Below, one piece after another: positions 1-18,933 of a stretch of DNA of 20,614 nt. Position numbers and translations under genes: made by a program. Source of the stretch: a virus. Position 1 is the stretch's first letter, and each line of letters starts with the position of its first letter. The stretch spans positions 1-20,614 of the IMG/VR virus record IMGVR_UViG_3300035126_000542; one strand, given 5' to 3'. Under the pieces are notes generated by a model. That model made no database searches. It was not told the origin of the DNA and was given only the letters and a program-made list of their open reading frames with translations.

Positions 1-800
1 GTCGCTCCAAACGCTTTTGGGTGGCCTCTGCTTCCTTGCGTTGGCGTTCTTTGACCTGTGCCTCCCTCTTTTGGTCTGCTGCGATTTGGGCGTTCGTGTG
101 GGCTTCGTATGCATCCCGGTAATTGGACAGGGCTGCTTCTTCACGCAACAACGCCTGCTCCCTTGCCTTGGCTGCGATGGCTGGGTCGGGTAGGTTCAGG
201 AACCTGCGGACCGCTGCGGTGAGTTCGTCCCACTTGGCGACCAAAAGCCCTACGGCTGCGATGGCTGCACCGATACCCGTAGCAAGGAGGGCGATTCTAA
301 ACGCCTTCATAGCCCCCGTACTTGCCCCGACTGCGGTTGCGTAGAGGGCCTGTGCTGCTGCCTGCCCTTGGGTGATTAGGATGGAGTCCTTGTTGAGCAG
401 ATTGGCGACCTGTTGCACTCCGTTAGCGAGAGCCATGGCCCCTTGGACCTTCAACAACGCTTTCTGCAAGTCCTCATTCTCGGAGCCGAACAACGCTGCT
501 GCACCTTGGGCGATTTGAAAGCCAGCGGTGATTCCTTGGATTCCAGCGACGAAGGTGTCGATGTTGCGCGTGTCCGATGCGAGGTTCTTAATCCGCTGCC
601 CCGTGTCCCCGATTTGGTCTTTGAGTTTCCCCGCCTCCTGCTCCATCTCCTTAAACGCCTTCGTGCCTTCTTGTCCCGCCAAGGACATATCGATAAGCGT
701 CTTTTGGAGTTCACGCAGACGCTGCTTAGCACTCGTCGTGCCTTGTGCCGTTGAGTCCTTAATTCCTACTTCGAGGACGATTTCTTTAGTAACTGCCATA
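1..800 (-). CDS. Phage tail tape-measure protein, N-terminal part (cut by the window edge)
   Basis: This reading frame is open from an ATG at 800 to the left edge, so its 3' end lies outside the window; 266 codons are visible. In siphophages the tape-measure protein spans the tail tube, sets its length and helps DNA ejection. What is seen: an N-terminal region rich in Lys, Glu and Gln with coiled-coil character (about residues 20-75, containing LRELQKTLIDMSLAGQEG), then a long Ala/Gly-rich stretch and a hydrophobic helix near residues 165-190 (AFRIALLATGIGAAIAAVG), then a charged helix rich in Arg, Glu and Ala (about 205-266). This charged-then-hydrophobic pattern is typical of tape-measure N-termini. 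It starts 5 bases after the stop of the 801-aa tail gene, so it is probably the last visible gene of one late transcript. A related minor tail protein is the alternative. Confidence 0.8.
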
Positions 801-805: not shown

Positions 806-3211
806 TTATTTGTCTGCCCATGCTGGTAATCCCGACACAACTTCCAAGACCTGACCTTCGGTTCCTATTCCCAAGTTTTTCCAAGCGGTGCCATCCCAAT
901 ACTTGATGTCGCCTGCTGCATCGCCCGGAGTAAACCCTGCACCTGCTGGACCGACCGCACCCGTTGCTCCAGTCGCACCCGTTTCACCGGGAGGGCCTGC
1001 AACCGCTGGGAGTTCCTTGACCAATGGAATCGGAGGGACTTCGTTTGGGTAATCCGAGTCCGTTGCAGGTACAGGGCCGTCGTAGGGTAGGTAACCGATT
1101 TGCTTTGGAACGAACTCGGTTAGGTTGAGAATCCTGCGAAGTGTAACCCGGCACGGCTTCTGCTGACCTATCTCGTAGTCCCGAATCTCAAGCAGCCTCC
1201 AACGGACCCCTCCGTAGTAGATGGGAGTGCGGAAGTCAAGTTGGCTGATGTCCACCGCATTGAGCATGATGGACAACTCCAACTGCATCGCTTCACGGCT
1301 GACCGTTTCTTGGATGAAGTTCCACCAATAGATGTTGAACAGGTTGTTGTTCGTGTATAGGTAGGGGTCGCTATTTGCGGCGACATTCACCGCATAATAC
1401 AACTGTTTGGGGATTCCAAAGGCGAGGTCAAAGTTTGCGTCGTAGGGGTTGTCAAGGTGGCTGACAAAAGGCAGATTTAACAACGACTCTGCGAGTGCTA
1501 CCGAACCGCTGACTCCGTATTGGTAGGCCCACGTCGTCGGTGCTTCGATGAGGTTGTACTGGGCTATGCGATAACCGCTCTGCAAGGTCTTGATAGTTCC
1601 CGACAAAGCGGAGCCATCCAAGTCCCAAACCCTACCGACTACCTTGTCAGTCGTGAAGTTCGCAGGGATTAGAGTGCTGCAAGCGAGTTCGACGATGTTC
1701 TCGCCCTTGCCGTAGAAGTTGTCGGTCGTGAAGATTCGCCCTCCGTAGCCTTCCTTCGCCAATGGGTAGTTCGACTTGTCCAACTTGGACAGATAATCGC
1801 CGGCATCCTTGTACTTGAACACGATGGTCTTGTACTGGTTCGGGTCCCCGTTCGTGATGTTTTGCTCTGCATTCTCATCCGATTTCTGCGACCAGTCAAC
1901 CACACCGCTGGAGTAGAAGTCCACCCAAGGTTCCACGATGAGGTTCTTCGGGTCGGCAGGGTCCGGCATGAAGTAGAGATTGAACATCTTTTGCAGGTCT
2001 TGCAAGAGGTCGCTCTGTTTCACGTCAGCAGGCAAAGCCGTAGCCATGTCAATCGTTCCAATACTCGTTGGATTCTCCAAGCATTCCCAAAGGACCGTTG
2101 AACCGCTCAAGAGATTGCATGCCGTGCTTCCAACGCCTGTCATCAAGACCCTTATCTGGCTGCTTGTGTTCAACTGGATATTGCTCCAAGTGATTACATT
2201 CGTGCCACTTGCTTGAGCCGTGAAGCCCCTTGATGGACTGACGACTCCACTCGTTGCCGTGTTGTATAAATAGAGAAAATTGTAGGTTTGATTGTTGAAT
2301 TGCGTTATTTGTCCAAAGTTCAGTTTAACCGTTACGTTCCATCGGGTTGGTAGTGCAGGGAGTTGTAGAGTGCTTGTCCCTGTGTTCCAGTAGCCGGGAC
2401 GGTCATAGTAAGGGCTTGAGTCATCGGCAAAGTTCAGGTAACCGCTAAAAGTCCCTGAAAAGTTTTGACCGCTCGTACTTGCAGCAAAAATGTTTGACCC
2501 GGAGAGGTTGACCGATAATTGTCCGGCAGCGTAAGGCATGACCAACTTACCGAACCGCTCCGAGTTGAAGAACTCCGATGTGTACCGATACCCCGCCTGT
2601 GCGAATATCAAGTCCACCATCTTCTTCACATAAATGCTCGGTGTCATCTTGTAAAAAGGCACGGCAAACCATCCCTGCGTTGTAGCATCCGTATAACCGT
2701 AGTTGTCAACCAAGCCGTAAACGTAACCGCTCGCACCACTTGCGGTCCAAGTCGCAGAAACATGGGCCGAGGTCAGCGTGTGGTTCATTCCGCTTACCCC
2801 AACCGTTGTTGCAAGGAGGTTGCCCTCAATGGCCTTGAACAGACTCACATCGTCCGAGAATAGGCCAACCTCATAGGTAACCTCGCCTTGAATCTTGGAC
2901 ATGGAAATCAGTTGCAGCACTCCGCTGAACACTTGGACCCCGTCCTCCCACATCGCAGCACGAATCTTCTTGTTCGGTTGGAATCCACCCACGAAGGACT
3001 GGATGTTGTAAGCGTACCCGAAGCAGGCCCTGTTGGTAGGCGTGTTTGGCAACGTGATGGTCTTGGAAAACGACCCCCTTCGCTTGGTGATGTCGGCAAT
3101 ATCCTCCACGCTGAACGTGAGGGCGATGTCGATTTCGCCCATGGTGTCAAGGACGTAGGGAACCTCTGCGTTTGATTCGTTGAGAGGATAGGCGATGAGG
3201 GTTACGCTCAT
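806..3211 (-). CDS. Large tail/baseplate protein with C-terminal collagen-like segment
   Basis: A protein of 801 residues, probably part of the tail tip or baseplate of the virion. The N-terminal part carries a stretch (GSFSKTITLPNTPTN, about residues 46-60) that I recognise from structural proteins of Bacteroidota phages; the middle is rich in Ser, Thr, Tyr and Asn, as in beta-structured tail proteins. Near the C-terminus seven Gly-X-Y triplets (about 739-759, starting GPPGETGATG) form a collagen-like trimerising segment. After it comes a short WDGTAW...GQVLEVVSGLPAW motif common at the ends of phage tail fibres. The ATG overlaps the upstream stop by four bases (ATGA), indicating translational coupling. 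The exact role (tail fibre, distal tail or hub) cannot be fixed from sequence alone. Confidence 0.75.
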   Translation of the reverse strand: MSVTLIAYPLNESNAEVPYVLDTMGEIDIALTFSVEDIADITKRRGSFSKTITLPNTPTNRACFGYAYNIQSFVGGFQPNKKIRAAMWEDGVQVFSGVLQLISMSKIQGEVTYEVGLFSDDVSLFKAIEGNLLATTVGVSGMNHTLTSAHVSATWTASGASGYVYGLVDNYGYTDATTQGWFAVPFYKMTPSIYVKKMVDLIFAQAGYRYTSEFFNSERFGKLVMPYAAGQLSVNLSGSNIFAASTSGQNFSGTFSGYLNFADDSSPYYDRPGYWNTGTSTLQLPALPTRWNVTVKLNFGQITQFNNQTYNFLYLYNTATSGVVSPSRGFTAQASGTNVITWSNIQLNTSSQIRVLMTGVGSTACNLLSGSTVLWECLENPTSIGTIDMATALPADVKQSDLLQDLQKMFNLYFMPDPADPKNLIVEPWVDFYSSGVVDWSQKSDENAEQNITNGDPNQYKTIVFKYKDAGDYLSKLDKSNYPLAKEGYGGRIFTTDNFYGKGENIVELACSTLIPANFTTDKVVGRVWDLDGSALSGTIKTLQSGYRIAQYNLIEAPTTWAYQYGVSGSVALAESLLNLPFVSHLDNPYDANFDLAFGIPKQLYYAVNVAANSDPYLYTNNNLFNIYWWNFIQETVSREAMQLELSIMLNAVDISQLDFRTPIYYGGVRWRLLEIRDYEIGQQKPCRVTLRRILNLTEFVPKQIGYLPYDGPVPATDSDYPNEVPPIPLVKELPAVAGPPGETGATGATGAVGPAGAGFTPGDAAGDIKYWDGTAWKNLGIGTEGQVLEVVSGLPAWADK

Positions 3212-4401
3212 AGGATGTTGTTCTTGTAGGCGACTGCAACCTCGACCTGCAACTGCGTCAGGCGGTCGTTCCTGCGTGTCGTGAATTGGTAGGTATTGGC
3301 GTTGACGATAGCCTCGACTAACTGCCCATCCAATTCAAGCCATACCTGCCCGGATCGGATCATCTCAATCAGCCAAGCGGATTCTGCATCCGTCAGCCAA
3401 TCCGAGTTGAGTGCGTAAACGTAATCAAACTCCCCTGCCCAAACTTTGTCGTAGGTTGTGGTCGCATAAACGTCCGAGTTGTACCCGAACGTCTGCCGGG
3501 TAATGTTGGCCCGCTTGCGGTTCTTGAGCGTAAAGGTGTAGGAGTCAATGCCTCCGTATTTGTTTTGAAAATGGACAGGGATGGAGTTGAACCGCTGGCA
3601 TTGCCCGATGACGTAGCGTTGACGAATCGTGATGTTTGACCCCCTTGAGAAGTAAACGTCGTAGAAGTCCCCGGCATTGCCTTGGAATAGGTAATCTCCG
3701 GGGTTCCCGTCCAAGCATTGCCCCGACGTGAGGGCTTTGAGGTTCATTGGCCCGACCCCAAAGCGAATGACATTAGAACCCGATACACTTGACGCTAACA
3801 CGTCGAACTGCCTTGCAAAGGTCGCTCCTGTTGCACTCCAGTATTGGATGTAAGCCTTCTCGACTGCGTAGTTAAACTGCCCGATGGAAAGCCATCCGTA
3901 GCCGTCGGCATAGACCGTGCGAGTCGTCGGGGTTGTTAGCATTCGATTCGTGTCGTTGACGATAGCACCGCTTGGGAAGTAAATCCCTCCACTCCAAGTC
4001 GCAAGTTCCAACTGCTCCAAGTTTCCTGCGAAGGAAACATTGCCCGAAACGGTTGTAACGGTTCCCGTGTAAACGACTGGGGTGTTCCCGTATTCCTCCA
4101 TGAAGTCGAGGCGATATCCCGAATAGTACCCGGCATGGTCCACGAAGCCCGTTTGGGTCAGCGATGGCTTGGTGGGTGCAATTAGGGTTTCAACGACCTT
4201 GGCCACATCAAAGAACCCAAAATTGGTGGCGGGCAGTTTGTCGCACTTCAACCGGGCAAGGGTGGTCCCTGCTGGGTTCTTCACATCGCAGACGTACCTG
4301 TAATTGGGTTGTGCAGTCAGCGAACCGCTGACCTTGAAAAGCATCTTGTTGTAAACGGGTGTTGCCACTTGGGGCGACCCGGAAAGGACGGTTGTTGCCA
4401 T
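3208..4401 (-). CDS. Putative tail structural protein, unknown family
   Basis: A protein of 397 residues without a motif I can name. It is rich in Thr, Ser, Tyr, Asn and Gly with few long charged helices, which suggests a beta-rich virion protein. No signal peptide or membrane segment is visible. It sits between a gp10-like gene and the collagen-bearing tail gene, one base after the former and overlapping the latter by ATGA, so it is very likely translated with them and belongs to the same tail structure. The C-terminal third (about 330-397) contains a run with LTDAESAWLIEMIRSGQVW that resembles segments found beside tail genes of other Bacteroidota phages; that comparison is from memory. Distal tail or tail-tip protein is the best guess. 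Confidence 0.6.
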   Translation of the reverse strand: MATTVLSGSPQVATPVYNKMLFKVSGSLTAQPNYRYVCDVKNPAGTTLARLKCDKLPATNFGFFDVAKVVETLIAPTKPSLTQTGFVDHAGYYSGYRLDFMEEYGNTPVVYTGTVTTVSGNVSFAGNLEQLELATWSGGIYFPSGAIVNDTNRMLTTPTTRTVYADGYGWLSIGQFNYAVEKAYIQYWSATGATFARQFDVLASSVSGSNVIRFGVGPMNLKALTSGQCLDGNPGDYLFQGNAGDFYDVYFSRGSNITIRQRYVIGQCQRFNSIPVHFQNKYGGIDSYTFTLKNRKRANITRQTFGYNSDVYATTTYDKVWAGEFDYVYALNSDWLTDAESAWLIEMIRSGQVWLELDGQLVEAIVNANTYQFTTRRNDRLTQLQVEVAVAYKNNIL

Positions 4402-4402: not shown

Positions 4403-5050
4403 TTATCTTGTTGTTGCTACGCTTATGGATTTACCAAGGACCTCTGCGATATTCTCGGTCAGGACCTCTATCATTTCGGGGCTTACTGCATTGCTCATAA
4501 AGTTGGTGGCCCGTGTTCCTCGTTGGAATACCCAATAGGCTACCGACCTGCCATCCACCAACCCTTGCTCCTGCTTCGTCCGCATCCGCTTGAGTTCACG
4601 GGAATAGGTTGGCACAACGGGTTTTTCCTTGTTGGCTATCCAATCGGCCATTGCTTGGGCAGGTGGGTACTTGTCCCTGTATTGGAATGGCGACCTTGGG
4701 GCCTTTACGCTTGACGTTTTGCCTCGCACCCCTTGGTCCACGTACTTCCAGTAGGGGTTGGCCATGATAGCCACGACGATTTGCTTTGCGGATAGTTCGA
4801 TGTCTTCGGGGGCGATGGATGCGGATAGCGTTCCCCCTGCATTTGCGTTGGCTGCTTCGAGGTTCTTCTTCGCAAGTTCAATGACCCGTTCAATCCACTT
4901 GACCAGCACGTCATAGGTGGGCGACTTGCCTCCACCCTTGGGTCCTACGATTGAACCAATACCCTCCAAAGCGGTTTGGTCGATGCCTTTCATCGAACCG
5001 CTACCGAATTTACCTACGGGTTGGCCATTCGCAAGTATGGTTGTTTCCAT
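4403..5050 (-). CDS. Putative head-tail joining / tail-completion protein (HK97 gp10-like)
   Basis: A protein of 215 residues. About 60-80 is a charged helix (DVLVKWIERVIELAKKNLEA), the centre contains a basic, proline-rich stretch (about 115-135), and the C-terminal part has AYWVFQRGTRATNFMSNAV, which recalls the 'GTR...' loop of gp10-type tail-completion proteins. The similarity is weak and the family call is inference. The gene lies between the chaperone-like frameshift locus and a tail structural gene, which agrees with a neck or tail assembly role. The ATG at 5050 is taken because the preceding frame closes at 5082 and the gene begins 31 bases later. It could also be an unrelated minor tail protein. 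Confidence 0.5.
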   Translation of the reverse strand: METTILANGQPVGKFGSGSMKGIDQTALEGIGSIVGPKGGGKSPTYDVLVKWIERVIELAKKNLEAANANAGGTLSASIAPEDIELSAKQIVVAIMANPYWKYVDQGVRGKTSSVKAPRSPFQYRDKYPPAQAMADWIANKEKPVVPTYSRELKRMRTKQEQGLVDGRSVAYWVFQRGTRATNFMSNAVSPEMIEVLTENIAEVLGKSISVATTR

Positions 5051-5081: not shown

Positions 5082-5231
5082 CTATCTGCGCCTCGCTCGT
5101 TCCGCTTCCATCCGTTCGGCTTCCAAGATGTCGTGGATTAACAGGGCATAGTTCAGGAACTCCACCGCCTTCATCGCAAAGATGGCATCGAATTTCAGCA
5201 CGTCCTTGTTTGCCATCCGCCACACGACCAT
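5082..5231 (-). CDS. Small tail ORF: probable -1 frameshift extension of the tail chaperone
   Basis: As a free-standing gene this would encode 49 residues from an ATG at 5231 (or 44 from an ATG at 5216), mostly helical, with a hydrophobic centre (FLNYALLIHDI) and a basic end (ERARRR). The same frame is open far upstream, through a T9 run at 5345-5337 inside the preceding gene. A -1 slip there would join this segment to the preceding protein and give about 248 residues instead of 189. This is the arrangement of lambda G/GT tail chaperones. The ATG lies 26 bases past the upstream stop and has no Shine-Dalgarno, so re-initiation is the alternative. Coding character of the segment is clear; the way it is expressed is inferred. 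Confidence 0.6.
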   Translation of the reverse strand: MVVWRMANKDVLKFDAIFAMKAVEFLNYALLIHDILEAERMEAERARRR

Positions 5232-5245
5232 AAGCCAACCGTAGC

Positions 5246-5277
5246 CGGCAAGAGGGCTTACGTCAGCCCCTCGGCCG
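5246..5277 (-). other. RNA hairpin whose loop holds the stop codon of the 189-aa gene
   Basis: On the coding strand CGGC and GAGGGGC pair with GCCCTC and GCCG, with one bulged G, one bulged C and a two-base bulge; the eight-base loop TGACGTAA contains the in-frame TAA (5260-5258). It lies about 60 bases past the T9 run, too far to be a classical frameshift stimulator, but could affect termination or re-initiation at the downstream small ORF. Function is inferred only. Confidence 0.35.
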
Positions 5278-5827
5278 TCTTCATCAGGTGCTTGGAATAA
5301 TCGCTCAAAACTTTCAAGTAGGATTCTGAACTTAGCAAAAAAAAACTGACAACGCCCCAAACGTCCCCGACCTTGGCGTGTTTCTTTATCAACTCGGCTC
5401 GCTCGGCATGGGCAGCCCCGTCGTACTTCTTCGGGAATAATCCGAATAGACCGCCCTCCCTGCACAAGGTCGCCATGATTCGATGAAGGTTCTGCAGGAG
5501 TTGCTTTTCGTCGGTCGTGTTTGCGTCCATTAACTCTATCAACTGCCCAGCGGTCAACTCATCCGTGAACACTGTTGGAATCCACCACTTGCCCCCGGCT
5601 TTGAACTTTCGCTTGTACCCAAGGGCAGGCAATGCGTTCCACTCGCTGATAATGGCCTTGTAACGCTTTAGGACGCTCTTGGCGGGCATTTCTCGAACGA
5701 TTGATATATCGACCCCCTCAACGATTGCAACGACTCCTGCTCGCTTGTCGTAGTCCCCGAGAACGCTGGAGAACTCAATGGCTCCGATGCGCTGGAACTG
5801 GTCGATGGTGAGGTCTTGGAGTTTCAT
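5258..5827 (-). CDS. Putative tail assembly chaperone (short form)
   Basis: A protein of 189 residues. It begins MKLQDLTIDQF, contains FTDELTAGQLIELMDAN near 88-104 followed by LLQNLHRIMATLCREGG (about 110-126), a layout I know from chaperone-like genes upstream of tape-measure genes in Bacteroidota phages. Such proteins bind the tape measure during tail assembly and are usually made in a short and a long form. Codons 161-164 read AGT TTT TTT TTG, i.e. a T9 run where a -1 slip enters an open frame. The gene overlaps the upstream glycosyltransferase stop by ATGA. Three genes separate it from the tape measure, which is further than usual. A generic tail protein is the alternative. Confidence 0.55.
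   Translation of the reverse strand: MKLQDLTIDQFQRIGAIEFSSVLGDYDKRAGVVAIVEGVDISIVREMPAKSVLKRYKAIISEWNALPALGYKRKFKAGGKWWIPTVFTDELTAGQLIELMDANTTDEKQLLQNLHRIMATLCREGGLFGLFPKKYDGAAHAERAELIKKHAKVGDVWGVVSFFLLSSESYLKVLSDYSKHLMKTAEGLT
5337..5345 (-). promoter_or_regulatory. T9 slippery run, candidate -1 ribosomal frameshift site
   Basis: Nine consecutive T on the coding strand, placed so that the zero frame reads T TTT TTT followed by TTG; this fits the X XXY YYZ rule for -1 slippage. The -1 frame stays open from the run to 5082 (84 codons). A homopolymer sequencing or assembly error would look similar, but then one of the two plausible frames would be wrong. Context beside tail genes favours a real frameshift. 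Confidence 0.55.
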
Positions 5828-6474
5828 AATTTTAGGAAGGTTTTGTAGGACGATGCCGACGATGCCGATGCAAGGTACTGGCTGAACTCCTTATCAGCCT
5901 TGCGTTCTTTCTCCGAATAGTACCAAGGAATGTGCCTCGCTGACTCAAGCAACGAAACCCCACCGATGAAGTACTCCTGCCGATTGTAAACGGCAAAGGT
6001 CGTGTCGATAGGCACGTCAACTCTCGCTGCCATGATGACCCGTGAGTTACGCTGACGAGTCGCCTCGTAGTTGTTCACATGGGTGTAGTACGACGACCTT
6101 GGAGGCACGTCATCCCATCGGAGCGACAGGCCTACCTTGCCTGCTTGGGGGAATTGTTGCAACCACTCCAAGCACATGGGAATCGTCCGCTTGCTGGTCT
6201 TGTAAAGGTCAAGGTCCGGGTCTGTAACCGCATAGAACGGCTCTCCCAGTTGTTGCACCAAGCCCGAAGTCCATGGGGCTTGATGGCCCAAGTTTTCGCC
6301 AAGCATTACGACCTTGCAGGGGTTGGTGGCGTACCACTCCAGCAAAGGCTCGTAGGTTGAACCGTTGTCCACGATGTAGATGTCCCCAATCCCCTCCCAC
6401 TTGCTCAAGTCCCTGACCATCGCCTTGGGCCACGTCAGCAGGTTGCGGTTGTTGATGATTACGGGGATGCCCAT
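5824..6474 (-). CDS. GT2-like glycosyltransferase (GT-A fold)
   Basis: A protein of 216 residues, taken from the ATG at 6474, one base after the upstream stop; an in-frame start at 6495 would run back into the upstream gene. GT-A features are visible: an N-terminal strand (GIPVIINNRN), IYIVDNGS near 33-40 as the nucleotide-sugar binding 'DNGS' motif, NLGHQAPW (about 61-68) and TDPDLDL near 84-90, which supplies the DxD-type metal site. No membrane segment is seen, so it should be cytoplasmic. It probably moves a sugar from an activated donor onto a glycan or protein. It is the last of three surface-chemistry genes behind the large terminase and overlaps the tail chaperone gene by ATGA. The acceptor, whether virion protein or host glycan, is unknown. 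Confidence 0.75.
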   Translation of the reverse strand: MGIPVIINNRNLLTWPKAMVRDLSKWEGIGDIYIVDNGSTYEPLLEWYATNPCKVVMLGENLGHQAPWTSGLVQQLGEPFYAVTDPDLDLYKTSKRTIPMCLEWLQQFPQAGKVGLSLRWDDVPPRSSYYTHVNNYEATRQRNSRVIMAARVDVPIDTTFAVYNRQEYFIGGVSLLESARHIPWYYSEKERKADKEFSQYLASASSASSYKTFLKL

Positions 6475-6475
6475 G

Positions 6476-7060
6476 TTAGAACTTGTAAACGGCAATAAGG
6501 TCGTCGTATCGGCCCGATTCGCTAAGGTCTATGGCCTCAAAGATTGAATTGCTCGGTGCTACGGCTGACAGGTTCACGAACCAATCCTTGCTCTGCACGT
6601 CTTCAATCATTAAGACACCGCCTTGGTTCATTAATGGTGCATACAGGCTGACGACCTGCAACATGGAGTCTAAGGTGTGCGGGCCGTCGTCAAGCAGGAA
6701 GTCGATGCCGTTCTTAAAATAGTCCCTTGCGACTTGCACGGATTCGGGGGTGTAGGCCGATGCGATGTGGAGCCTTGAACGAGTCCAGTCAATGTGCTTG
6801 TCAGCCTTTGGCTTGACTTGGTTGGCAATGTCGTAGAACAAGAACTTGGCCTTTGGAAGATATTTGCACCACATAGCCATGGACCCTCCGTGCCACACGC
6901 CTATCTCCACAAAATTGATGGAGTCGGCTCGCATTTCAGCCAAGTACTTAGCATATGTGCTTGTGTAGTTGTGGCCGTTGGCCTTGTCGGTTCCTCCCTC
7001 CCAGTCAGCACCATTGAGGTCTAACTCGTCGAGGATGGCAATCAGTTCTTTGTCTTTCAT
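6476..7060 (-). CDS. Class I SAM-dependent methyltransferase, MycE/TylF-like
   Basis: A protein of 194 residues. The SAM-binding motif I is FVEIGVWHGGSMAMW (about 49-63), followed by FLFYDI with its acidic residue at the end of strand two; LLDDGPHTLDSML (about 119-131) and GGVLMIEDV (about 144-152) correspond to the DDGSH and IED motifs of macrolide-sugar O-methyltransferases, where these acids bind the metal. The Pro in DDGPH replaces the more usual Ser. The ATG at 7060 is chosen because it lies two bases after the upstream stop; the 53 residues that precede it in frame are a shadow of the upstream gene. Between two glycosyltransferase-like genes, methylation of a sugar or glycan is likely; the substrate is inferred. 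Confidence 0.8.
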   Translation of the reverse strand: MKDKELIAILDELDLNGADWEGGTDKANGHNYTSTYAKYLAEMRADSINFVEIGVWHGGSMAMWCKYLPKAKFLFYDIANQVKPKADKHIDWTRSRLHIASAYTPESVQVARDYFKNGIDFLLDDGPHTLDSMLQVVSLYAPLMNQGGVLMIEDVQSKDWFVNLSAVAPSNSIFEAIDLSESGRYDDLIAVYKF

Positions 7061-7062
7061 GG

Positions 7063-7716
7063 TTAAAATGTGATTACAAACTTTTCGGGACCCGGCCATC
7101 CGGGGTTGGTATCGTGGACCTTGGTGTCGGGCTTCTTGCCAATCCAATGCTCTGCCTGCCAGCGGTGATCCCGTACTGGTTCGCCCAGTTCCTTGATGTG
7201 GGACGACTTGGCCCACCAATAGGTTCCACCAAAGTAGGGGTAGCCGTCGGCGTTGTTGTGGTCAGCCATGTGAGGGAACTGTTCCTTGGTAATCCAATGA
7301 CATCCCACCGCATCCACGCCTTCCAGCAGTTGCAAGCAGCGTTCCCAAGCCACGACGTTGAAGAAGGTCATCGACCTATTCCAAAGTTGGTTGATAAGCG
7401 ACGGATCGCTTGCCCCCTTCGTGTGGGCGTACAGGTACACGGCTTCCTCTTCCTGACTTGCCCGGTACATCTCGGTAAGCGTCGCCTGCTCCCAAGCGTT
7501 GGTCCGGGTTACTACTATTTTAATCTTCGGGGCCACCATCGAGTTCTCCAGCACCTCCTTGACCGCTTTGCGTTGTTCGGGTGGACCGACGATGCCGACA
7601 CGAATCTCATCCAAGACCCCGATGAGGCCATAGTTGCACACGGCCATCATGTGCTGGTTGAGTATCAACTGCCAGTTGCCTCCGCAATAGATGTGGTAGT
7701 AGTGGACGACTTTCAT
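7063..7716 (-). CDS. Glycosyltransferase-like protein
   Basis: A protein of 217 residues from the ATG at 7716; an upstream TTG at 7725 is less likely. The pattern AVYLYAHTKGASDPS (about 91-105), a later VDAVGCHWI, then YFGGTYWWAKSSHIKELG (about 162-179) and WQAEHWI is one I know from a group of glycosyltransferase-like proteins encoded in capsule and LPS loci, where the equivalent segments read HTKG and GNFWWA. No DxD site is as clear as in the partner gene at 5824-6474, so the enzyme could be a variant or have another role. The start overlaps the stop of a 33-aa membrane peptide by ATGA, and the methyltransferase follows after two bases, so the three enzymes are made together. Confidence 0.65.
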   Translation of the reverse strand: MKVVHYYHIYCGGNWQLILNQHMMAVCNYGLIGVLDEIRVGIVGPPEQRKAVKEVLENSMVAPKIKIVVTRTNAWEQATLTEMYRASQEEEAVYLYAHTKGASDPSLINQLWNRSMTFFNVVAWERCLQLLEGVDAVGCHWITKEQFPHMADHNNADGYPYFGGTYWWAKSSHIKELGEPVRDHRWQAEHWIGKKPDTKVHDTNPGWPGPEKFVITF

Positions 7717-7814
7717 AAGGTCCAAAGGAGAGTTAGAAGGGTGAGGATAAAGAAAACGGCTGCAACCGTCTTCCCGATTTCGATTAGCAGGTCAAGGATG
7801 CGTTCGGGGTTCAT
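7713..7814 (-). CDS. 33-residue single-span membrane peptide
   Basis: An ATG at 7814 opens a 33-codon frame starting MNPERILDLLIEIGKTVA, then a hydrophobic run AVFFILTLLTLLWTL to the end: a short charged N-terminus and one membrane span. It begins 9 bases after the large terminase stop, and its TGA overlaps the ATG of the following gene as ATGA, so the whole terminase-glycosyltransferase gap is filled by a coupled frame. The tight fit and amphipathic/hydrophobic layout support a real gene. It may be a holin-like or regulatory membrane peptide, or anchor the glycan enzymes; no family is recognised. Confidence 0.5.
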   Translation of the reverse strand: MNPERILDLLIEIGKTVAAVFFILTLLTLLWTL

Positions 7815-7823: not shown

Positions 7824-8999
7824 TTAAACCACAACATACTTCCCAGAGTTACTGACCCTTAACTTGTTGAGGGCCACATACCGCATCGCATCGCAGGCGT
7901 GGTTGAACGAGTCAATCGGAACCCCCGTGTTCTTGCCTTCCTTGTCGGTCGCCCAAGTATAGGACCGCAGTTCCTTGATGAGGTTGGTGCTATCCTTGGT
8001 TACCTGCAACTTAAAGCGTTTCAGGATGTCTATCCCGTTCCTGACCGAGTCGGGACCTTTCTCCGCTGGCTTGATGTTGAAACCTAACCGATAGATTTCT
8101 TCGATGGACTTCGGTTCTGCTGAATCCGCCACGATCTCCCAAGCCCTTGTGATGCCCAGCGACCGCAACTTGTCTGCGATGTCTTGGTTGGTTAGACCCG
8201 TGGAGTAGAGCAGTTCTTGGATGAGCAGGCAGTCCCCTTGGCGGTAGATAGCGACCAAGGCCGTAGGGTCGTTGCTAAAGCCCCAGTCAAGCCCTAAGGC
8301 GACGAATTTCGCACGGCTGACATCTATACCCTCCACCACCTCGAAGTCCTCGTAGATAGCACCCTGAAGCGTCCCGACTTGACCGAGGCCATACACCTTC
8401 CACCAGTTCGCCCAATAGGCAGAGGTTTCGGCTTTGGTGCGGTTCAGTTCGATGTCCCTCCTAATCGTGTCGGGCAAAGCCTCGTTGTCCTGATAGGTCA
8501 GGATGAGCAGTTCGGAATCGTCCTCTCGCAGGACCTCGGTATGCGCCCAAAACTCGTGCGTCGGGTTGAAGTCGATGTAGATGGCCTCGCTGGTACGGAT
8601 GGCTAACTGATAGTAGGACTCGAAGTCAATGTTGTTCGCCTCGTTGATGAATAGCACCTGCCTCCTTGCACCCCGGAGCCTTGCCTCTTGGTCAGCCGAG
8701 AAAAACTCGATGGTGCTACGGTTAGCGAACTGGTAGGTCAGCAGGGTCTTGTTCCACCTTGCCGGAACGAAGATGCCCTTGGCAATCATTATCTTGATGA
8801 AGTCCCGAATCGCACCCCTCCGAAGGTGAGGCACGGTTTCCCCGACGATGCTGATTTCGGTCTTCTTCGTGCAAGCCTGTTTGATTAAAACGCAAAGGAT
8901 GCTGAAGGTCTTGGAGGCCGAGGTCCCTCCTTGGATGACCCGTTTACGATGGGTCAGCGATTCAATCTTCCGCTTGGCGGTGGTGTTTATGACCTTCAT
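7824..8999 (-). CDS. terL: Terminase large subunit (DNA-packaging ATPase and nuclease)
   Basis: The motor that pumps phage DNA into the prohead and cuts concatemers. The protein has 391 residues from the ATG at 8999 (a TTG three bases earlier is in frame). The ATPase part has a Walker A variant GGTSASKT (24-31) and Walker B VLFINEA with the catalytic Glu at about 120. The RNase H-like nuclease part has LGLDWGFSNDP with Asp 238, ADSAEP with Asp 292, and HACDAMRY with Asp 370, the acidic metal-binding set. Length and motif spacing fit PBSX/Terminase_3-type proteins. The start shares one base with the small terminase stop (TGATG). Unusually, no portal gene follows; a membrane peptide and glycan-modifying enzymes do. 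Confidence 0.95.
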   Translation of the reverse strand: MKVINTTAKRKIESLTHRKRVIQGGTSASKTFSILCVLIKQACTKKTEISIVGETVPHLRRGAIRDFIKIMIAKGIFVPARWNKTLLTYQFANRSTIEFFSADQEARLRGARRQVLFINEANNIDFESYYQLAIRTSEAIYIDFNPTHEFWAHTEVLREDDSELLILTYQDNEALPDTIRRDIELNRTKAETSAYWANWWKVYGLGQVGTLQGAIYEDFEVVEGIDVSRAKFVALGLDWGFSNDPTALVAIYRQGDCLLIQELLYSTGLTNQDIADKLRSLGITRAWEIVADSAEPKSIEEIYRLGFNIKPAEKGPDSVRNGIDILKRFKLQVTKDSTNLIKELRSYTWATDKEGKNTGVPIDSFNHACDAMRYVALNKLRVSNSGKYVVV

Positions 9000-9415
9000 C
9001 AATCATCTTCAGTCCATTGTTCAATGAACACTTGATTCTCCTGTTTGTCAACCAAGGAGTTCAACCGTTGGGTGATGCTTGCGTTGTACTGACCGACCAT
9101 ACCCCCTTCGATTTGGTCTTGGCGGATGACTCGCTTTATGCGTGAACAGATACTTAAATAGTCGGAGTAGTTGCCCTTCGTGTTGGCAAAGTAGTGTTCA
9201 AGGCCATCAATGATACCTGCATCCGCACACCAGTTCTCAAAGCCTTCCAAGGTCAGCGGACGCTCCAAAGGCTCATGCTGGGGGATAGCATCCTTGCCGG
9301 GGAATACCGTCTTAGTCCTTGGGTTTGCCTTGACCTGCGAGCGGTATGCCTCAAAGTACTCCCACATCTTTTCGGGGGTTTCAATGTATTTGCCGTGTCC
9401 TCTGCTGGTTCCCAT
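8999..9415 (-). CDS. terS: Terminase small subunit (P22 gp3-like)
   Basis: A protein of 138 residues that would recognise the packaging site and load the large terminase on DNA. It contains RPLTLEGFENWCADAG (about 52-67), then HYFANTKGNYSDYLSICSRI and a helical RVIRQDQIEGGMVGQYNASI (about 95-114); this arrangement is that of gp3-type DNA-packaging proteins, whose central helices build a ring. It is immediately followed by the large subunit (one-base overlap), the usual terS-terL order, and preceded by a 46-aa frame with which it also shares one base. No separate DNA-binding motif is clear. The call rests on both pattern and position. Confidence 0.8.
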   Translation of the reverse strand: MGTSRGHGKYIETPEKMWEYFEAYRSQVKANPRTKTVFPGKDAIPQHEPLERPLTLEGFENWCADAGIIDGLEHYFANTKGNYSDYLSICSRIKRVIRQDQIEGGMVGQYNASITQRLNSLVDKQENQVFIEQWTEDD

Positions 9416-10295: not shown

Positions 10296-10543
10296 TTGAA
10301 GGTCCATTCTCGGAGTAAAATTGCGGTGGCAGATGAGGCAAGCCCAAGGATAGGAGCCAAGTACCATTGGCAGGTCGGCAGGGTCAGGGCAACCCCAAGC
10401 CAAAACCCGAAGCAGGTCATGCACGAAAACGGCTTCCGCTTCGCAAAGGGCAAAGCGTAGAACCATCCCGGCAGTACCCGGAACTCCACGACCGCAAGGG
10501 TCGCTAAAGCACTAATCAGGATTGGAAAAACCAGTATATCCAT
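10292..10543 (-). CDS. Small integral membrane protein, possible holin-like
   Basis: An 83-residue protein with hydrophobic segments at about 3-22 (ILVFPILISALATLAVVEF), 44-56 (GFWLGVALTLP) and 61-76 (YLAPILGLASSATAIL), a basic stretch between the first two (AKRKPFSCMTCFG), and a short basic end. Two or three membrane spans are likely. The SCMTCFGFWLG core is one I have seen in small membrane proteins of Bacteroidota phages, function unknown. Size and spans would permit a holin, but the amidase endolysin is far away on the other strand, so that is only a suggestion. It overlaps the upstream sigma-like gene by 32 bases. Confidence 0.6.
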   Translation of the reverse strand: MDILVFPILISALATLAVVEFRVLPGWFYALPFAKRKPFSCMTCFGFWLGVALTLPTCQWYLAPILGLASSATAILLREWTFK

Positions 10544-11060
10544 TGGACTCGATTGCGGTTTTGATTTTGGCCTTGGCCTGTTCGATGGAGTAGATTATTG
10601 ACCTGTACGGGATGCCCGTTTCACGGCTCATGGCTTTCATATTCCCGGTCTGCATGAGCAGGTTCAGCAGTTCTTTGTCGTAGGGGAACGCTCCGTCCTT
10701 GGCCCAAGAGTCCATCTCTTGCTGGGCAATGGCCCAAAGGTCATCGAGCAGGGAATCGTAGTCTTTGCCCAGTTCTTGGGTTTCAGGATCCACTTCAACC
10801 CTCTCGTCGTGGTGTCGGTACTTCTTGGCAAATTGGTTGTTGTTGCCCCGGTAAAGGTTCATGATGAGCCGAACGATGTAAAAACGCAGGTAGCCTTGCA
10901 CCTGCATCTTGAGAATTTTGTCGGGGTCTTTTTCGAGCAGGATGAGGACGACCTCTTGTTCGAGGTCCTTCCAAAGCGGATTGCCCCCCGTAATGGTGAG
11001 GCAAGCCTTGCGGATTTCTCCGCTTCGATAAAGGTCAAGGATGGTAGCCTCTGCGTTCAC
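10512..11060 (-). CDS. Sigma-70-like (ECF-type) transcription factor, putative
   Basis: A 182-residue protein starting at GTG 11060; the first ATG in frame is at codon 52 and would remove part of the conserved region. WKDLEQEVVLILLEKDPDKI followed by YLRFYIVRLIMNLYRG (about 30-71) looks like sigma region 2 (core-binding and -10 recognition helices). The C-terminal part, MKAMSRETGIPYRSIIYSI and AKAKIK (about 141-167), is a helix-turn-helix like region 4. Between them lies an acidic linker. If correct, it redirects host RNA polymerase to phage promoters, and its place just ahead of the terminase and late genes fits a late-gene switch. It could also be a non-sigma helix-turn-helix regulator. Confidence 0.55.
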   Translation of the reverse strand: MNAEATILDLYRSGEIRKACLTITGGNPLWKDLEQEVVLILLEKDPDKILKMQVQGYLRFYIVRLIMNLYRGNNNQFAKKYRHHDERVEVDPETQELGKDYDSLLDDLWAIAQQEMDSWAKDGAFPYDKELLNLLMQTGNMKAMSRETGIPYRSIIYSIEQAKAKIKTAIESNGYTGFSNPD

Positions 11061-11086
11061 TGACGCAAAGATGGAGAGGGCTTTTC

Positions 11087-11386
11087 CTAATGTTGCAAAA
11101 AATCTCTCGTCCTGTTCAGAACCTGTGTACGAAGGAATTTAATGTCGGGCCTTGCTCTCATGTTTTTGGCAAGAATTTCGAGGTTGTGCATGACCGTTGC
11201 GTGGTTCCTCTTGATGATTCGCCCGATTTGGCAGTAGGTGTAGAGGTATTCGGAGTAGGCGATGTCTGCGAAGATGCTTCGAGCAAGGACCAGTTCTTGG
11301 GTCTTGACTTCGCTCAAGATGTCATCGGGGCTGACTCCGACGACCTCTGCCGTGTAGCCGAGGATGGTTCGTGAGATTAGGTCCAT
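11087..11386 (-). CDS. Stand-alone DnaA domain IV-like DNA-binding protein
   Basis: A 99-residue protein from the ATG at 11386, two bases after the DUF551 stop. The centre and C-terminal half carry the DnaA domain IV pattern: an initial helix (ISRTILGYTAEVVGVSPDDI), then QIGRIIKRNHATVMHNLEIL (about 55-74), equivalent to the DnaA signature (GR..G.RDHTTVLHA), and a final helix with KFLRTQVLNRTRDFL. The AAA+ part of DnaA is absent, so it can bind DNA but not form an ATP-driven initiator filament. Such fragments occur in Bacteroidota hosts and phages; a role in replication control or as repressor is possible. The family resemblance is clear; the function is inferred. Confidence 0.75.
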   Translation of the reverse strand: MDLISRTILGYTAEVVGVSPDDILSEVKTQELVLARSIFADIAYSEYLYTYCQIGRIIKRNHATVMHNLEILAKNMRARPDIKFLRTQVLNRTRDFLQH

Positions 11387-11388
11387 GG

Positions 11389-11571
11389 TTAAAACGGGTT
11401 TGGGGGTAGGGGCATCCAGTGGCTCACTTCGGAGAGGAACCAAGCTTGGTGTTCGTAGCACCAAAGGTGGCGGTTCTCAAGCCAGCCCATAAATTGATTC
11501 ATGTCCGTTGTGAAAATCAGGACGGGTTCACCAAGTTCCGGCATACGCTCGGAGCATTTAATCCACTCCAT
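11389..11571 (-). CDS. DUF551 family protein
   Basis: A 60-residue protein. It opens MEWIKCSERMPELGEPVLIF and closes with VSHWMPLPPNP, the two conserved ends of DUF551 (WI.C.ERLP..G..VL... and ..V.HWMPLPEPP). DUF551 proteins are common in phages; their function is not known to me. The ATG is one base after the stop of the CxxC peptide gene, and the DnaA-like gene begins two bases after its own stop, so it belongs to a compact run of small genes. Confidence 0.85.
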   Translation of the reverse strand: MEWIKCSERMPELGEPVLIFTTDMNQFMGWLENRHLWCYEHQAWFLSEVSHWMPLPPNPF

Positions 11572-11572
11572 G

Positions 11573-11725
11573 TCAGGCGTTTTTGGCTTGGAGGATACGA
11601 CCGAGCAGGGTCCAGTTGACGGACCAAGCCTTGATGGTTTCGCTTTTGTCGGGGCGGTTGCAGTTGACGCACTCCTTGCGGATGTGCAGTTGCCAGCGTC
11701 GGAAATCGGTTGGTGTGGTTTTCAT
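11573..11725 (-). CDS. 50-residue CxxC peptide of unknown function
   Basis: A short frame with ATG at 11725 and TGA ending at 11573. It starts MKTTPTDFRRWQLHIRKECV and has a single Cys pair (CVNC, 19-22) followed by a Trp-containing helix (AWSVNWTLLGRIL). It lies exactly between two other small genes, one base before the DUF551 ATG. The start region (GGTGTGGTTTTCATGGG on the plus strand) is repeated at the next upstream gene, so both begin MKTTP. Compact placement supports expression; no function is recognised. Confidence 0.55.
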   Translation of the reverse strand: MKTTPTDFRRWQLHIRKECVNCNRPDKSETIKAWSVNWTLLGRILQAKNA

Positions 11726-11735
11726 GGGTTTGGGG

Positions 11736-11978
11736 TTAATTGAGAAAGGTTATAGAATCAGGGGACTCCATTGTAACTTCTCCTGTTTCTATGTTTTCTG
11801 CTATTGCAAGTGTTTCTGCATATACGCAGTCTTTTTGTGGGTCTTCTGGATGGAGTTTTTTCGTACCTCGTTGTCCCCATCCGTGAAAAAAGGCTAAATA
11901 AGTGACATCTGGTTTTGGATACAAATTATAATACCGCACTTGGCATTTTCTCAGTTTTTCTTTGGGTGTGGTTTTCAT
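11736..11978 (-). CDS. AT-rich small gene of unknown function
   Basis: An 80-residue protein, visibly richer in A and T than its neighbours. It contains YLAFFHGWGQRG (about 27-38), then CVYAETLAIAENIETGEVTM (about 51-70), a layout like small accessory proteins in Bacteroidota that I cannot name. No membrane span. It is the first gene behind the promoter at 12068-12097, with a leader of about 85 bases that holds a 9-base direct repeat (AGGCTGACG on the plus strand, at 12007 and 12040). Base composition and first-gene position fit a recently acquired accessory gene. Confidence 0.55.
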   Translation of the reverse strand: MKTTPKEKLRKCQVRYYNLYPKPDVTYLAFFHGWGQRGTKKLHPEDPQKDCVYAETLAIAENIETGEVTMESPDSITFLN

Positions 11979-12067
11979 GGGGTTATGGTTTGGTTGGTAA
12001 GGTTATAGGCTGACGCTGGGGGAGGTTTGGTAAGACCAGAGGCTGACGGTTAGCGATTGCGTATAGG

Positions 12068-12097
12068 CAAATTTACACAACTATTCCACACTTGCAA
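12068..12097 (-). promoter_or_regulatory. Bacteroidota-type promoter for the small-gene/terminase operon
   Basis: On the minus strand TTG (12097-12095), 19 bases, then TAAATTTG (12075-12068) match the Bacteroidota -33/-7 pattern. It lies over the end of the VRR-NUC gene and about 90 bases ahead of the ATG at 11978. The ten bases GTAAATTTGC, which include the -7 box, recur exactly at the promoter before the primase. The leader between it and the start codon carries two AGGCTGACG copies, possible regulator sites. Activity is inferred from sequence. Confidence 0.6.
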
Positions 12098-12407
12098 CCA
12101 CTCTTTGAAAATCCTCCACGCTCCTGATGACCTCGTATCGGTAGCCTGCCTCTTGGACGACTCCCTGCCACCACTTCTGCGAGAGGGATTGCTTGCCTTT
12201 CTCGGCTTTGAACTCCAGCATCACCGCACCGGTGGGCGAGAGCCATATCATGTCGCTGACACCTGCGACCACGCCCATGGCCTTCATCACGCTGCCGGCA
12301 TAGGCATTCGGTGCGTTGTTGTTGACGGTGAATAATCGGCCACGCTGGTCGGGAAAGTTGTTCCAGTGCCACTGGAAGCATTCGGCTTGGAGTTTAAATT
12401 CTTGCAT
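12081..12407 (-). CDS. VRR-NUC domain nuclease
   Basis: A 108-residue protein that consists almost only of a VRR-NUC domain, a PD-(D/E)XK-type nuclease fold seen in phage and in FAN1-type repair enzymes. Visible are an N-terminal helix with Glu 9, GVSDMIWLSPTG with Asp 52, LEFKAEKGKQS with Glu 65 and Lys 67 (the E-x-K pair), Gln 73 and a C-terminal YEVIRSVEDF. The catalytic set appears complete. Stand-alone VRR-NUC proteins in phages are thought to cut branched DNA or recombination intermediates. The gene follows the SF2 helicase by four bases, so helicase and nuclease are likely made together and may act together. Confidence 0.85.
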   Translation of the reverse strand: MQEFKLQAECFQWHWNNFPDQRGRLFTVNNNAPNAYAGSVMKAMGVVAGVSDMIWLSPTGAVMLEFKAEKGKQSLSQKWWQGVVQEAGYRYEVIRSVEDFQRVVASVE

Positions 12408-12411
12408 GAAC

Positions 12412-13845
12412 TTACTTTAGGATTGGAAAACGGTCTTTATTGTGGAAGGCCCAGCCTGGCCTCCATCCCATGTAGCGGATGAACTCCAAGGCTTCGGCTT
12501 TGCTCTTGCATTGATTGTGCAGAACCCAAAACGGGCTGATGACCTTGGCCTTTGCCAGTTGAGCCTTTTGGTACATCGTGCTTTGCTTTGCCATTTCCAT
12601 GCCTTGGGCCTTGGTCAGCATCTGCAAACTTACGACTTCCCCTGGAGGCTTTGGCTTTCGCTCGTATTCAAACTTGCAATGCTTGCACTCCATGGCAGCC
12701 ACCGGGATAATGGCCTCGCAATTCTTGCAGTTCTTCACCCCACCAACGCCAGCGGATTCCCGTTTGCGTTTCTTCTTCAAGGACCATTCCCGGTTGGTTT
12801 CCCAAAAGCCATGGGTCTGCACGTTGTTCCCGAAATCCAGCACCGTGAACCGTGTCTTGGTTGGCGTTACCCTGGAGCCTCGGCCAACCATTTGCATGAA
12901 CAGGGGTAGGCTCGCAGTCGCCCGGTAAAGGATAACGACCTCGATGCTTGGTTCATCAAAGCCCGTGGTCATCAGGTCGCAGTTGCAAAGGATCCCATTG
13001 GTGGAATGCTTGAACCAGGCAAGGGTTTCGGCTCGTAAGGACTTTGGCATCTCTCCGTCAACGTGCCGGGCGTTGAACCCTGCACCCTGCAAAGCCTCGC
13101 AAACCTCCTTGCTCGATGCGATGTTGCTGGCAAACACGATTGCCTTCTTGCCTGGGCAGACCTTGGCGTAGTTCTGCACCACCCCGGCAAAGACCTTCCG
13201 CTCGCTGAATTGTTTGGCCATCTGCTCGGTGTCGTAGTCGTCGCCCTTCATGCGGATCCCGGAAAGGTCCTGCGTCATTCCGTAGGTCGTTGGTTCGGCC
13301 AGGTAGCCTTGGCTGATTAGTTCCTGCACCTGAACCGGTGCATGGAGGGCCTTGTAAAACTTCGAGAGGCATTCTTGCTTTCCCCTCCGCAATGGCGTTG
13401 CAGTCGCACCGATGACCACGGCCTTGAGGTTGATGTATGGCAGCAGGGGGTTAAATGTTTGCTTGTGGGCTTCGTCAATGATCACCAGGTCCATACGGGC
13501 CAAGAGGTCCGTGTATTCAGCAGAGTCCTTCCTTCGGCTGAATGTTTGAGCCATGGCAATGAAGCAGTTTCCTGAAACATCGAGCCGGGTGCGGTTGGCC
13601 TCAATCAGCGTCGGCTTAATTCCGAACTGGTCCAAGGCTCCATTGGATTGCCGGAGCAGTTCAACCCGGTCCGTGAAGATGATGGCCTGCTTGCCTTTCT
13701 CTAAGGCCCGTGCCACCATGTAAGTGAACATGACCGTCTTTCCGCTTCCAGTCGGGGAGCAGAGTATCAAGCGTCTTTTGCCCTCGGCAATACTTGTCCG
13801 CATTTGGTCAATAGCGGTTTGTTGGTAGGGTCTAAGTGTGGTCAC
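12412..13845 (-). CDS. SF2 DEAD/DEAH-box helicase with C-terminal zinc ribbon
   Basis: A 477-residue ATP-dependent nucleic-acid helicase. Seen in order: a Q-motif-like LRPYQQTAID (4-13), Walker A SPTGSGKT (30-37), DEAH (124-127), motif III GATATPLR (147-154), motif V-type TTGFDEPS (293-300) and motif VI QMVGRGSR (318-325). Residues 373-390 hold CKNC and CKHC separated by ten residues, a zinc ribbon likely to contact DNA. The start is GTG at 13845, fixed by an upstream in-frame stop and by the need to include the Q-like motif; the GTG lies inside one of the iteron-like repeats. It is paired with the VRR-NUC nuclease. A role in replication restart, recombination or origin opening is plausible. 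Confidence 0.9.
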   Translation of the reverse strand: MTTLRPYQQTAIDQMRTSIAEGKRRLILCSPTGSGKTVMFTYMVARALEKGKQAIIFTDRVELLRQSNGALDQFGIKPTLIEANRTRLDVSGNCFIAMAQTFSRRKDSAEYTDLLARMDLVIIDEAHKQTFNPLLPYINLKAVVIGATATPLRRGKQECLSKFYKALHAPVQVQELISQGYLAEPTTYGMTQDLSGIRMKGDDYDTEQMAKQFSERKVFAGVVQNYAKVCPGKKAIVFASNIASSKEVCEALQGAGFNARHVDGEMPKSLRAETLAWFKHSTNGILCNCDLMTTGFDEPSIEVVILYRATASLPLFMQMVGRGSRVTPTKTRFTVLDFGNNVQTHGFWETNREWSLKKKRKRESAGVGGVKNCKNCEAIIPVAAMECKHCKFEYERKPKPPGEVVSLQMLTKAQGMEMAKQSTMYQKAQLAKAKVISPFWVLHNQCKSKAEALEFIRYMGWRPGWAFHNKDRFPILK

Positions 13846-14085
13846 TTGTAGTTACTTTGAATTTGGGCGAAGTGACTACCAAAATCTGCGTTTTTGATAG
13901 CGTGAAGGGGGTTGTAGTCACTGTAGTCACTTTAGTTACTACTTTCTTTAGAGTATATATTATATGCACACACACACACACACACATGCACATATAAGGC
14001 CCTAAAGAAAAAACGCATTTTAAGTGACTAAGTGACTACACTAAAAGGGATGTCGCTTAGTATCAACTTGTTGGGCGTAGTCACT
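13838..14085. repeat. Array of 9-bp iterons GTAGTCACT, candidate phage replication origin
   Basis: Exact copies of GTAGTCACT or its complement AGTGACTAC are at 13871-13879 (reverse), 13914-13922, 13923-13931, 14031-14039 (reverse) and 14077-14085. Copies with one or two changes are at 13838-13846, 13848-13856, 13932-13940 and 14023-14031. Three abut in tandem at 13914-13940. The array surrounds an AT-rich stretch (13951-13965), a (CA)10 tract and an imperfect dyad (13944-13953 against 14000-14009). The site is the gap between the primase/VapE and SF2 helicase genes. Iterons next to an AT-rich segment beside replication genes are the usual shape of an origin; function is inferred. Confidence 0.6.
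13967..13986. repeat. (CA)10 dinucleotide repeat
   Basis: Twenty bases of perfect CA repeat sit in the centre of the iteron-bearing gap, between TATATG on the left and TGCACATATA on the right. It lies in the loop of an imperfect dyad whose arms are TTCTTTAGAG and CCCTAAAGAA. Alternating purine-pyrimidine DNA can adopt unusual helical forms; a part in origin melting is only a guess. The tract may vary in length between relatives. Confidence 0.8.
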
Positions 14086-16275: not shown

Positions 16276-16403
16276 AGGATAAGAAAAAAAATACCCCGAC
16301 TGATAGCAGCAGCCGGGGTAGGGGTTCAAGCATGACCCTTTATCGGTAGCATCACTTGGCTGCTATACAAGCAATGCGTCTATTGGTAAATGTATGTTGC
16401 GTG
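16276..16403 (-). promoter_or_regulatory. Attenuator-like 5' leader of the primase/VapE gene
   Basis: A transcript from the promoter at 16404-16434 would carry about 120 untranslated bases before the ATG at 16275. An upstream segment, ATAGCAGC (16366-16359), can pair perfectly over eight bases with GCTGCTAT (16310-16303); this overlaps the loop and first arm of the terminator hairpin, so the two structures exclude each other. A smaller stem GGGT/ACCC lies between. This is the usual layout of an attenuator or riboswitch expression platform. The sensed signal is unknown; a very short leader RNA is the alternative. Confidence 0.45.
16284..16320 (-). terminator. Intrinsic terminator hairpin inside the primase leader
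   Basis: On the minus strand TACCCCGGCTG (16320-16310) pairs with CAGTCGGGGTA (16302-16292) with one mismatched pair, around a seven-base loop, and is followed at once by eight T (16291-16284). The stem is GC-rich and the T tract abuts it, as expected of a Rho-independent terminator. It lies 8 bases before the primase ATG, downstream of that gene's promoter, so it should reduce read-through unless overcome. Confidence 0.75.
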
Positions 16404-16434
16404 CAAATTTACCGCAACTTAGGGATTAAAACAA
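16404..16434 (-). promoter_or_regulatory. Bacteroidota-type promoter for the primase/VapE gene
   Basis: Minus strand: TTG (16434-16432), 20 bases, then TAAATTTG (16411-16404). The TA of the -7 box is part of the TAA stop of the 62-aa gene, so the promoter overlaps the end of the preceding gene. The core GTAAATTTGC is identical to that at 12068-12075. Transcription would begin near 16397 and run into the attenuator-like leader. Confidence 0.6.
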
Positions 16435-16597
16435 GGTCAAAGCCATCCATTATTTCTGCAAACTCTTGCATTTTAATGTGCTTTTCCCATTTCAATTCAT
16501 TTTTTTCATTCACACGATAGCGAGAAATCTGCCGTATTTTAATGATTGGACCTTCTTCATCCTTAGAAAGATTCCAAATTTTTGCGATGTACTGCAT
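16409..16597 (-). CDS. Small AT-rich gene of unknown function
   Basis: A 62-residue protein (MQYIAKIWNLSKDEEGPIIK at its start), rich in Lys, Ile and Glu, and clearly richer in A and T than the flanking genes. The predicted fold is a beta-rich front part with a helical end (QEFAEIMDGFDLVLI). It starts two bases after the SSB-like gene stop and its TAA is shared with the -7 box of the next promoter. No family is recognised. Its different composition hints at separate ancestry. Confidence 0.55.
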   Translation of the reverse strand: MQYIAKIWNLSKDEEGPIIKIRQISRYRVNEKNELKWEKHIKMQEFAEIMDGFDLVLIPKLR

Positions 16598-16599
16598 AA

Positions 16600-16836
16600 T
16601 TAAAAAGGCATATCACCGTCTTGGGGTGCAAAATTTCCACCGCTGGTCTGCTGCTGGATCGGCTCTACTTTGCCGGATATGAACCGCTTGCCATTGGATT
16701 CCTTGACCCACCCGGAGAGGCGCATCTTGGTTCCATCGGGGAGAACCACGTCGCCCCGGTAATCGGGACGCTTAGGGTTGTCGCCTTTGTCATTAACGAA
16801 GAGAGTGAAGGTGTTGGGTTGGGGGGTGTAACTCAT
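16600..16836 (-). CDS. Small SSB-like protein with acidic tail
   Basis: A 78-residue protein. Residues about 9-57 (TFTLFVNDKG, then YRGDVVLPDGTKMRLSGWVK, then KRFISGKVEP) form alternating short strands as in small OB-fold or DUF736-like proteins, and the end reads PQDGDMPF, very like the acidic C-terminal tip of bacterial SSB (DDDIPF) that docks repair and replication partners. It is half the length of a normal SSB. Its place between the Rad52-like gene group and the primase supports single-strand DNA binding during replication or recombination. The start overlaps the winged-helix gene stop by ATGA. A DUF736-like protein without DNA binding is the alternative. Confidence 0.55.
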   Translation of the reverse strand: MSYTPQPNTFTLFVNDKGDNPKRPDYRGDVVLPDGTKMRLSGWVKESNGKRFISGKVEPIQQQTSGGNFAPQDGDMPF

Positions 16837-17045
16837 GGTTGGGGGTTGTAAATGGTTGGGGTTGGGGTTTCGAGTTTGTGATAGTACGATTTGGTTACTC
16901 CGACATAGCCGGAATTTAGGAGGTCGTGCAGCACCCGGTAGGTGTAGCGTTCTTTGTTGCCCAGCAGTTCAGCAATCTGCTTGGCTCGGTATGGGCGGTC
17001 GCATAGCAACCTGTAAACCCTTACGGCATCGGAGGCTCTTCTCAT
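16833..17045 (-). CDS. Small winged-helix DNA-binding protein
   Basis: A 70-residue protein. The sequence from about 5 to 52 reads as helix, helix-turn-helix and wing: VYRLLCDRPYRAKQIAELLG, then YTYRVLHDLLNSGYVGVTKS. This is the layout of MarR/ROK-like winged helices, where the second helix enters the DNA groove. The tail is Pro- and Thr-rich. It overlaps both neighbours by ATGA (17042-17045 and 16833-16836), lying between the 149-aa unknown and the SSB-like gene. It probably regulates phage genes; its target is unknown. Confidence 0.65.
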   Translation of the reverse strand: MRRASDAVRVYRLLCDRPYRAKQIAELLGNKERYTYRVLHDLLNSGYVGVTKSYYHKLETPTPTIYNPQP

Positions 17046-18370: not shown

Positions 18371-18378
18371 GTTTGGGT

Positions 18379-18922: not shown

Positions 18923-18933
18923 GGTTTGTAAAG

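Follow-up and report, generated by a model that had tools for sequence, protein, structure and literature searches.

Frameshifted tail chaperones are a textbook case of ribosomal recoding. In phage lambda, G and GT are the short and -1-extended forms of one tail gene, and both act as chaperones of the tape-measure protein (PMC5009743). P2-like phages have T6G or T7G/T7C at such a gene, and the event there is described as ribosomal (PMC3931495). RNA polymerase can also slip on homopolymers, and transcriptional slippage at A9 or T9 has been described in Thermus dnaX, Shigella mxiE and IS elements (PMC1088944). In many bacterial genomes, selection against slippage becomes apparent once A/T runs reach nine (PMC1088944). 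Single-base insertions in homopolymers all fell in A/T runs and rose with run length (PMC5574713), and the RNA-DNA hybrid of RNA polymerase spans 9-10 bp (PMC5009743). The literature we searched yielded no report of transcriptional slippage in a phage tail chaperone.

The gene examined here lies in a 20,614-nucleotide stretch of viral DNA (IMG/VR record IMGVR_UViG_3300035126_000542), which we call the window. Its frame-0 ORF runs on the minus strand from an ATG at 5827 to 5258 (5258..5827) and has 189 codons, of which codons 161-164 read AGT TTT TTT TTG. This places a run of nine Ts at 5337..5345, and the -1 frame is open from 5' of the run down to a TAG at 5084..5082. The gene, its T run and the open -1 frame were part of the original prediction, and their coordinates held. 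A shift at TTT TTT would produce a 248-aa fusion that shares its first 163 residues with the short form and takes its last 85 from the -1 frame; the -1 extension, 85 codons and a stop following codon 163, occupies 5082..5339 on the minus strand and carries an [LM]AN[GK]D domain. The two frames overlap at 5258..5345. The site contains an in-frame T TTT TTT and has the X XXY YYZ form of a -1 ribosomal frameshift heptamer. One T9 in the window is near chance, as 0.64 are expected and 34 of 100 shuffles contained at least one, so the weight of the case rests on conservation across relatives. AlphaFold modeled the short form with a pLDDT of 89.9, and the fusion was represented in structure prediction by a continuous homologue, L250. 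Searching the PDB with the short-form model and the L250 fusion-type model returned no credible match to a solved structure, an absence that does not imply a new fold.

To follow the site through evolution, we scanned IMG/VR with the 189-aa protein and examined the best 80 of 427 relatives, which are 97-100% identical to it in protein sequence. The T9 run is present in all 80. We then compared variability in 79 full-length sequences, comprising the window and 78 close relatives; all of them keep T9 unchanged, with both frames open. The conservation of run and frames that the original prediction had put forward as a check is therefore borne out. Before the run, mean minor-allele frequencies at frame-0 codon positions 1, 2 and 3 are.030,.004 and.149. 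They drop to.021,.034 and.026 in the overlap, with low variability at all three positions, and become.003,.211 and.037 3' of the frame-0 stop, where position 2 coincides with -1-frame position 3. In other words, the variability typical of third positions marks frame 0 upstream, disappears from both frames in the overlap and reappears in the -1 frame after the stop, a progression that indicates dual coding beginning at T9. In none of the 79 sequences does the -1 frame contain an ATG, GTG or TTG after the run and before frame 0 ends. Comparison of these genes thus shows that both frames are constrained as translated sequence, and it identifies the site and direction of the change.

We also looked for more distant relatives. 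An early tblastn of phage records gave nothing useful, and a first scan of genome contigs confirmed no relative. The peptide ANGDITK is a motif familiar from other phage tail genes, and a degenerate DNA pattern for it recovered eight contigs, the majority of which carry this two-frame gene. With three different sequences as starting points, profile scans blind to the T run then yielded 153 unique loci that form 31 clusters at 70% identity. We classed 131 of the 153 as split, every one to the -1 frame, and most clusters are split like the window gene. A further 12 window-family loci were labelled 'continuous' by our script due to a -1 frame that is open far upstream, and are in fact split at T9. 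Counting every locus, the longest stretch of Ts 5' of the motif is a T9 in 126, a T10 in 19 (three of them in-frame and single-ORF) and T6 in two; no locus found has T7 or T8. The peptide directly after the run, resembling F..FR..L.E.Y..LF, recurs across the family. PHROG profiles place many of these proteins in a group of no assigned function, phrog_32199, which matches 34 of the 40 short-form members of alignment A4 (best 3.7e-24) and not the window protein; on this basis, phrog_32199 is probably the same family of chaperone candidates.

A minority of relatives encode the fusion in one frame (L088, L249, L250, L258, L267, L276, L281, L297 and L304), and they align straight through the junction. 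Although continuous-frame relatives had been named as a result that would count against recoding, those that occur (L088, L249/L250, the L258 group and L304) make the same join in a single ORF and so support a real fusion without speaking against recoding in the split majority. Together with the variability pattern and the split family, they give strong support to the predicted 189-aa and 248-aa forms produced by a -1 change. In L249, L250 and L297 a T10 lies in frame, which would make the long form the default product. L179, which clusters with L249 and L250, has T9 and is split. The siblings of L297 also have T9, so the extra T of L297 could be either genuine variation or an error. A sister lineage consists of L253 (match region 3001-3249) and L255; the L253 junction has only T6 in a canonical U UUU UUA (GGT TTT TTA), the L255 junction has no T run, and a tape-measure-like ORF sits directly upstream of the gene in L253.

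Two cultured phages carry the gene. In BFVD, the short-form model matched proteins of uncultured phages and one of Nonlabens phage P12024S, where the homologous gene comes right after terminase. It contains a T9 at 23578, the only run of at least nine Ts on the plus strand of that record, and P12024L agrees, with T9 in its homologous gene. The annotations of both phages (Inhavirus) divide the gene into a pair of hypothetical proteins, _38/_39 and _40/_41. Unlike the window family, the -1 domain of P12024S lacks the LANGD motif. A weak BFVD match in Flavobacterium phage 6H was set aside due to its T6 run and confusing frame pattern. Elsewhere in the window, the replication genes at 10512-20523 (VapE-like primase, ResIII helicase, VRR-NUC and Rad52-like) resemble the gene content of P12024S, a likeness that hints at a Bacteroidota host.

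What does the two-frame gene do? Its neighbors, all on the minus strand, point to a tail module. The terminase large subunit, identified by Pfam and PHROG matches, lies upstream in gene order (7824..9002), and the other end of the module runs off the window with the N-terminal part of a probable tape-measure protein (2..799). The latter matches phrog_21917 at 9e-24, a profile that also matches a 658-aa protein of L087 that is itself matched by tape-measure PHROGs. Between the candidate and the tape measure are three genes, which encode a 215-aa protein (4403..5050; phrog_29822, also found at the corresponding place in L087), a 397-aa protein assigned to the tail region by position and the similar gene order in L087 (3208..4401), and an 801-aa tail-region protein (806..3211; phrog_38559, the family of P12024S_45). 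L087 has a similar layout: terminase, the two-frame gene, proteins of 152, 175, 361 and 825 aa, and then the 658-aa protein. P12024S has a similar order of terminase, two-frame gene, a few genes and tape measure. A spacing of three genes before the tape measure, initially thought unusual, thus looks typical of the family. The window also contains a sugar-related cassette (methyltransferase and glycosyltransferase-like genes) at 5824-7725, between terminase and the two-frame gene. In close relatives this interval ranges from 1,835 to 3,307 bases between flanks that are both about 84-96% identical, and in L003 it includes a UDP-galactopyranose mutase.

The window protein has no significant match to a chaperone profile in Pfam or PHROGs. 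Among 40 family members, the most frequently matched Pfam family is Phage_TAC_7 (5/40, best 0.0012, weak), and weak matches also link 12 of the 40 to phrog_166, a tail protein, and three to phrog_3140, a tail assembly chaperone. Like a G/GT-type gene, the locus encodes a short form and a C-terminal extension in another frame, as judged by comparison of relatives. Gene order, the two-product architecture and these weak profile matches make it likely that the gene encodes a G/GT-like tail-assembly chaperone. The predicted function is plausible on these grounds and stops short of proof.

Our best explanation for the whole locus, to which we give a probability of roughly 0.6, is a two-product G/GT-like chaperone gene with a -1 change at T9 that most likely arises by transcriptional slippage. 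RNA polymerase would realign on the nine Ts and add one extra U in a fraction of the mRNAs, so that ribosomes would read into the extension without making an error themselves. Transcripts read straight would give the 189-aa short form, whose role would be to coat the tape-measure protein. The 248-aa fusion would be the rarer product and would recruit the tail-tube protein. The chaperone function, the ratio of products and slippage by the polymerase rather than the ribosome are all points that we infer.

Two readings would dispense with recoding altogether. Homopolymers are error-prone, and L297 differs from its siblings by a single T, so the run could in principle reflect a sequencing error or a decayed gene. 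However, T9 is found in all close relatives, which come from many independent metagenomes, and in two isolates, and both frames are under constraint; conservation on this scale excludes a T8 or T10 miscall, which had been raised as a possible refutation, and we consider error or decay extremely improbable. Alternatively, the locus could encode two separate proteins, with the downstream ORF reinitiating near the frame-0 stop and no fusion made. The window does have a -1-frame ATG shortly 3' of that stop, and in both L184 and the P12024S annotation a second ORF, which has a start of its own, overlaps the stop of the first. This arrangement is contradicted by constraint on the -1 frame that begins at the T run, 5' of any start codon, by the family-wide recurrence of the post-run peptide and by the single-ORF relatives that encode the fusion outright. 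We regard reinitiation as very unlikely.

The more serious question is whether the ribosome slips instead, making the same two products by -1 programmed frameshifting at U UUU UUU or U UUU UUG, as at P2 gene E/E'. Each T9 or T10 site contains an in-frame T TTT TTT by construction, split relatives always shift to -1, L253 has a canonical U UUU UUA on T6, and P2 relatives use T6G and T7G/C at a comparable gene in what is described as a ribosomal event (PMC3931495). However, a ribosomal heptamer needs just 6-7 Ts in the commonest phase, and the conserved 9-10 Ts exceed that need. T7 and T8 sites are never seen, and 13 clusters whose phase would make seven Ts sufficient all have T9, with L253 as the sole exception. 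Runs are almost always T9 or T10, and they occur in all three codon phases. On a quick tree of 114 sequences, whose several long branches make the count approximate, the codon phase in which the run lies changed at least 10 times while its length stayed at 9-10 save for one T6, indicating that run length, not codon position, is what is kept.

Additionally, the junctions of 34 representatives comprise 30 T9, three T10 and one T6, with no T9 in 150,749 bases of their flanking coding-strand DNA. Signals that can stimulate ribosomal frameshifting are absent or inconsistent in the same 34: we detected no downstream RNA structure (mean z of folding against shuffled sequence, +0.16 to +0.31), and just six have a Shine-Dalgarno-like match upstream of the site. 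Not all known -1 ribosomal frameshift sites carry such a signal. A homopolymer of about nine or more A/T that persists irrespective of codon phase is what transcriptional slippage calls for. Taken together, run length, phase independence, the lack of T9 in the flanks and the lack of a consistent stimulator favor transcriptional over ribosomal slippage, and they suggest that the signature of the run fits the polymerase better. Of the proposed ribosomal slippage at X XXY YYZ, the in-frame heptamer is present, while the 9-10 Ts in any phase and the failure to detect a stimulatory structure point to transcription. These observations stop short of proving polymerase slippage, since a ribosomal slippery site lies within every T9/T10 run and P2-like phages reach a comparable extension with T6G or T7G/C; we hold ribosomal frameshifting to be the less likely alternative. 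The in-frame T10 of L249/L250 does not separate the mechanisms, because either could also yield the short form. On balance, we lean slightly toward the idea that polymerase slippage on a 9-10 nucleotide T run sets the chaperone ratio throughout this phage lineage, of which the known isolates infect Bacteroidota, including in those in-frame T10 relatives whose default product would be the long form.

The family is a large one in which most members have no assigned function, and it occurs in two cultured phages. A T9-T10 run between two overlapping ORFs downstream of terminase can serve as an annotation signature for tail chaperones in these phages, and the site itself suggests that the two-product logic of known systems is achieved by a different machine. 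As in lambda G/GT, the window gene would have a short form and a -1-extended long form, but the slip site differs, we see no sequence similarity and the gene does not adjoin the tape measure. P2 gene E/E' (Phage_TAC_7, PF10109) and its counterparts in P2-like phages such as Smp131 also pair a tail gene with a -1 extension at a T run. Weak profile similarity to the P2-like proteins recurs in the wider family, although the window protein itself shows none; the slip sites are T6G or T7G/C there and T9/T10 here, and, unlike E/E', three or more genes separate the two-frame gene from the tape measure. In the genes known to use A9/T9 slippage, about nine As or Ts likewise join two ORFs or give two products; those examples are cellular or IS genes, whereas the window gene belongs to a phage tail.
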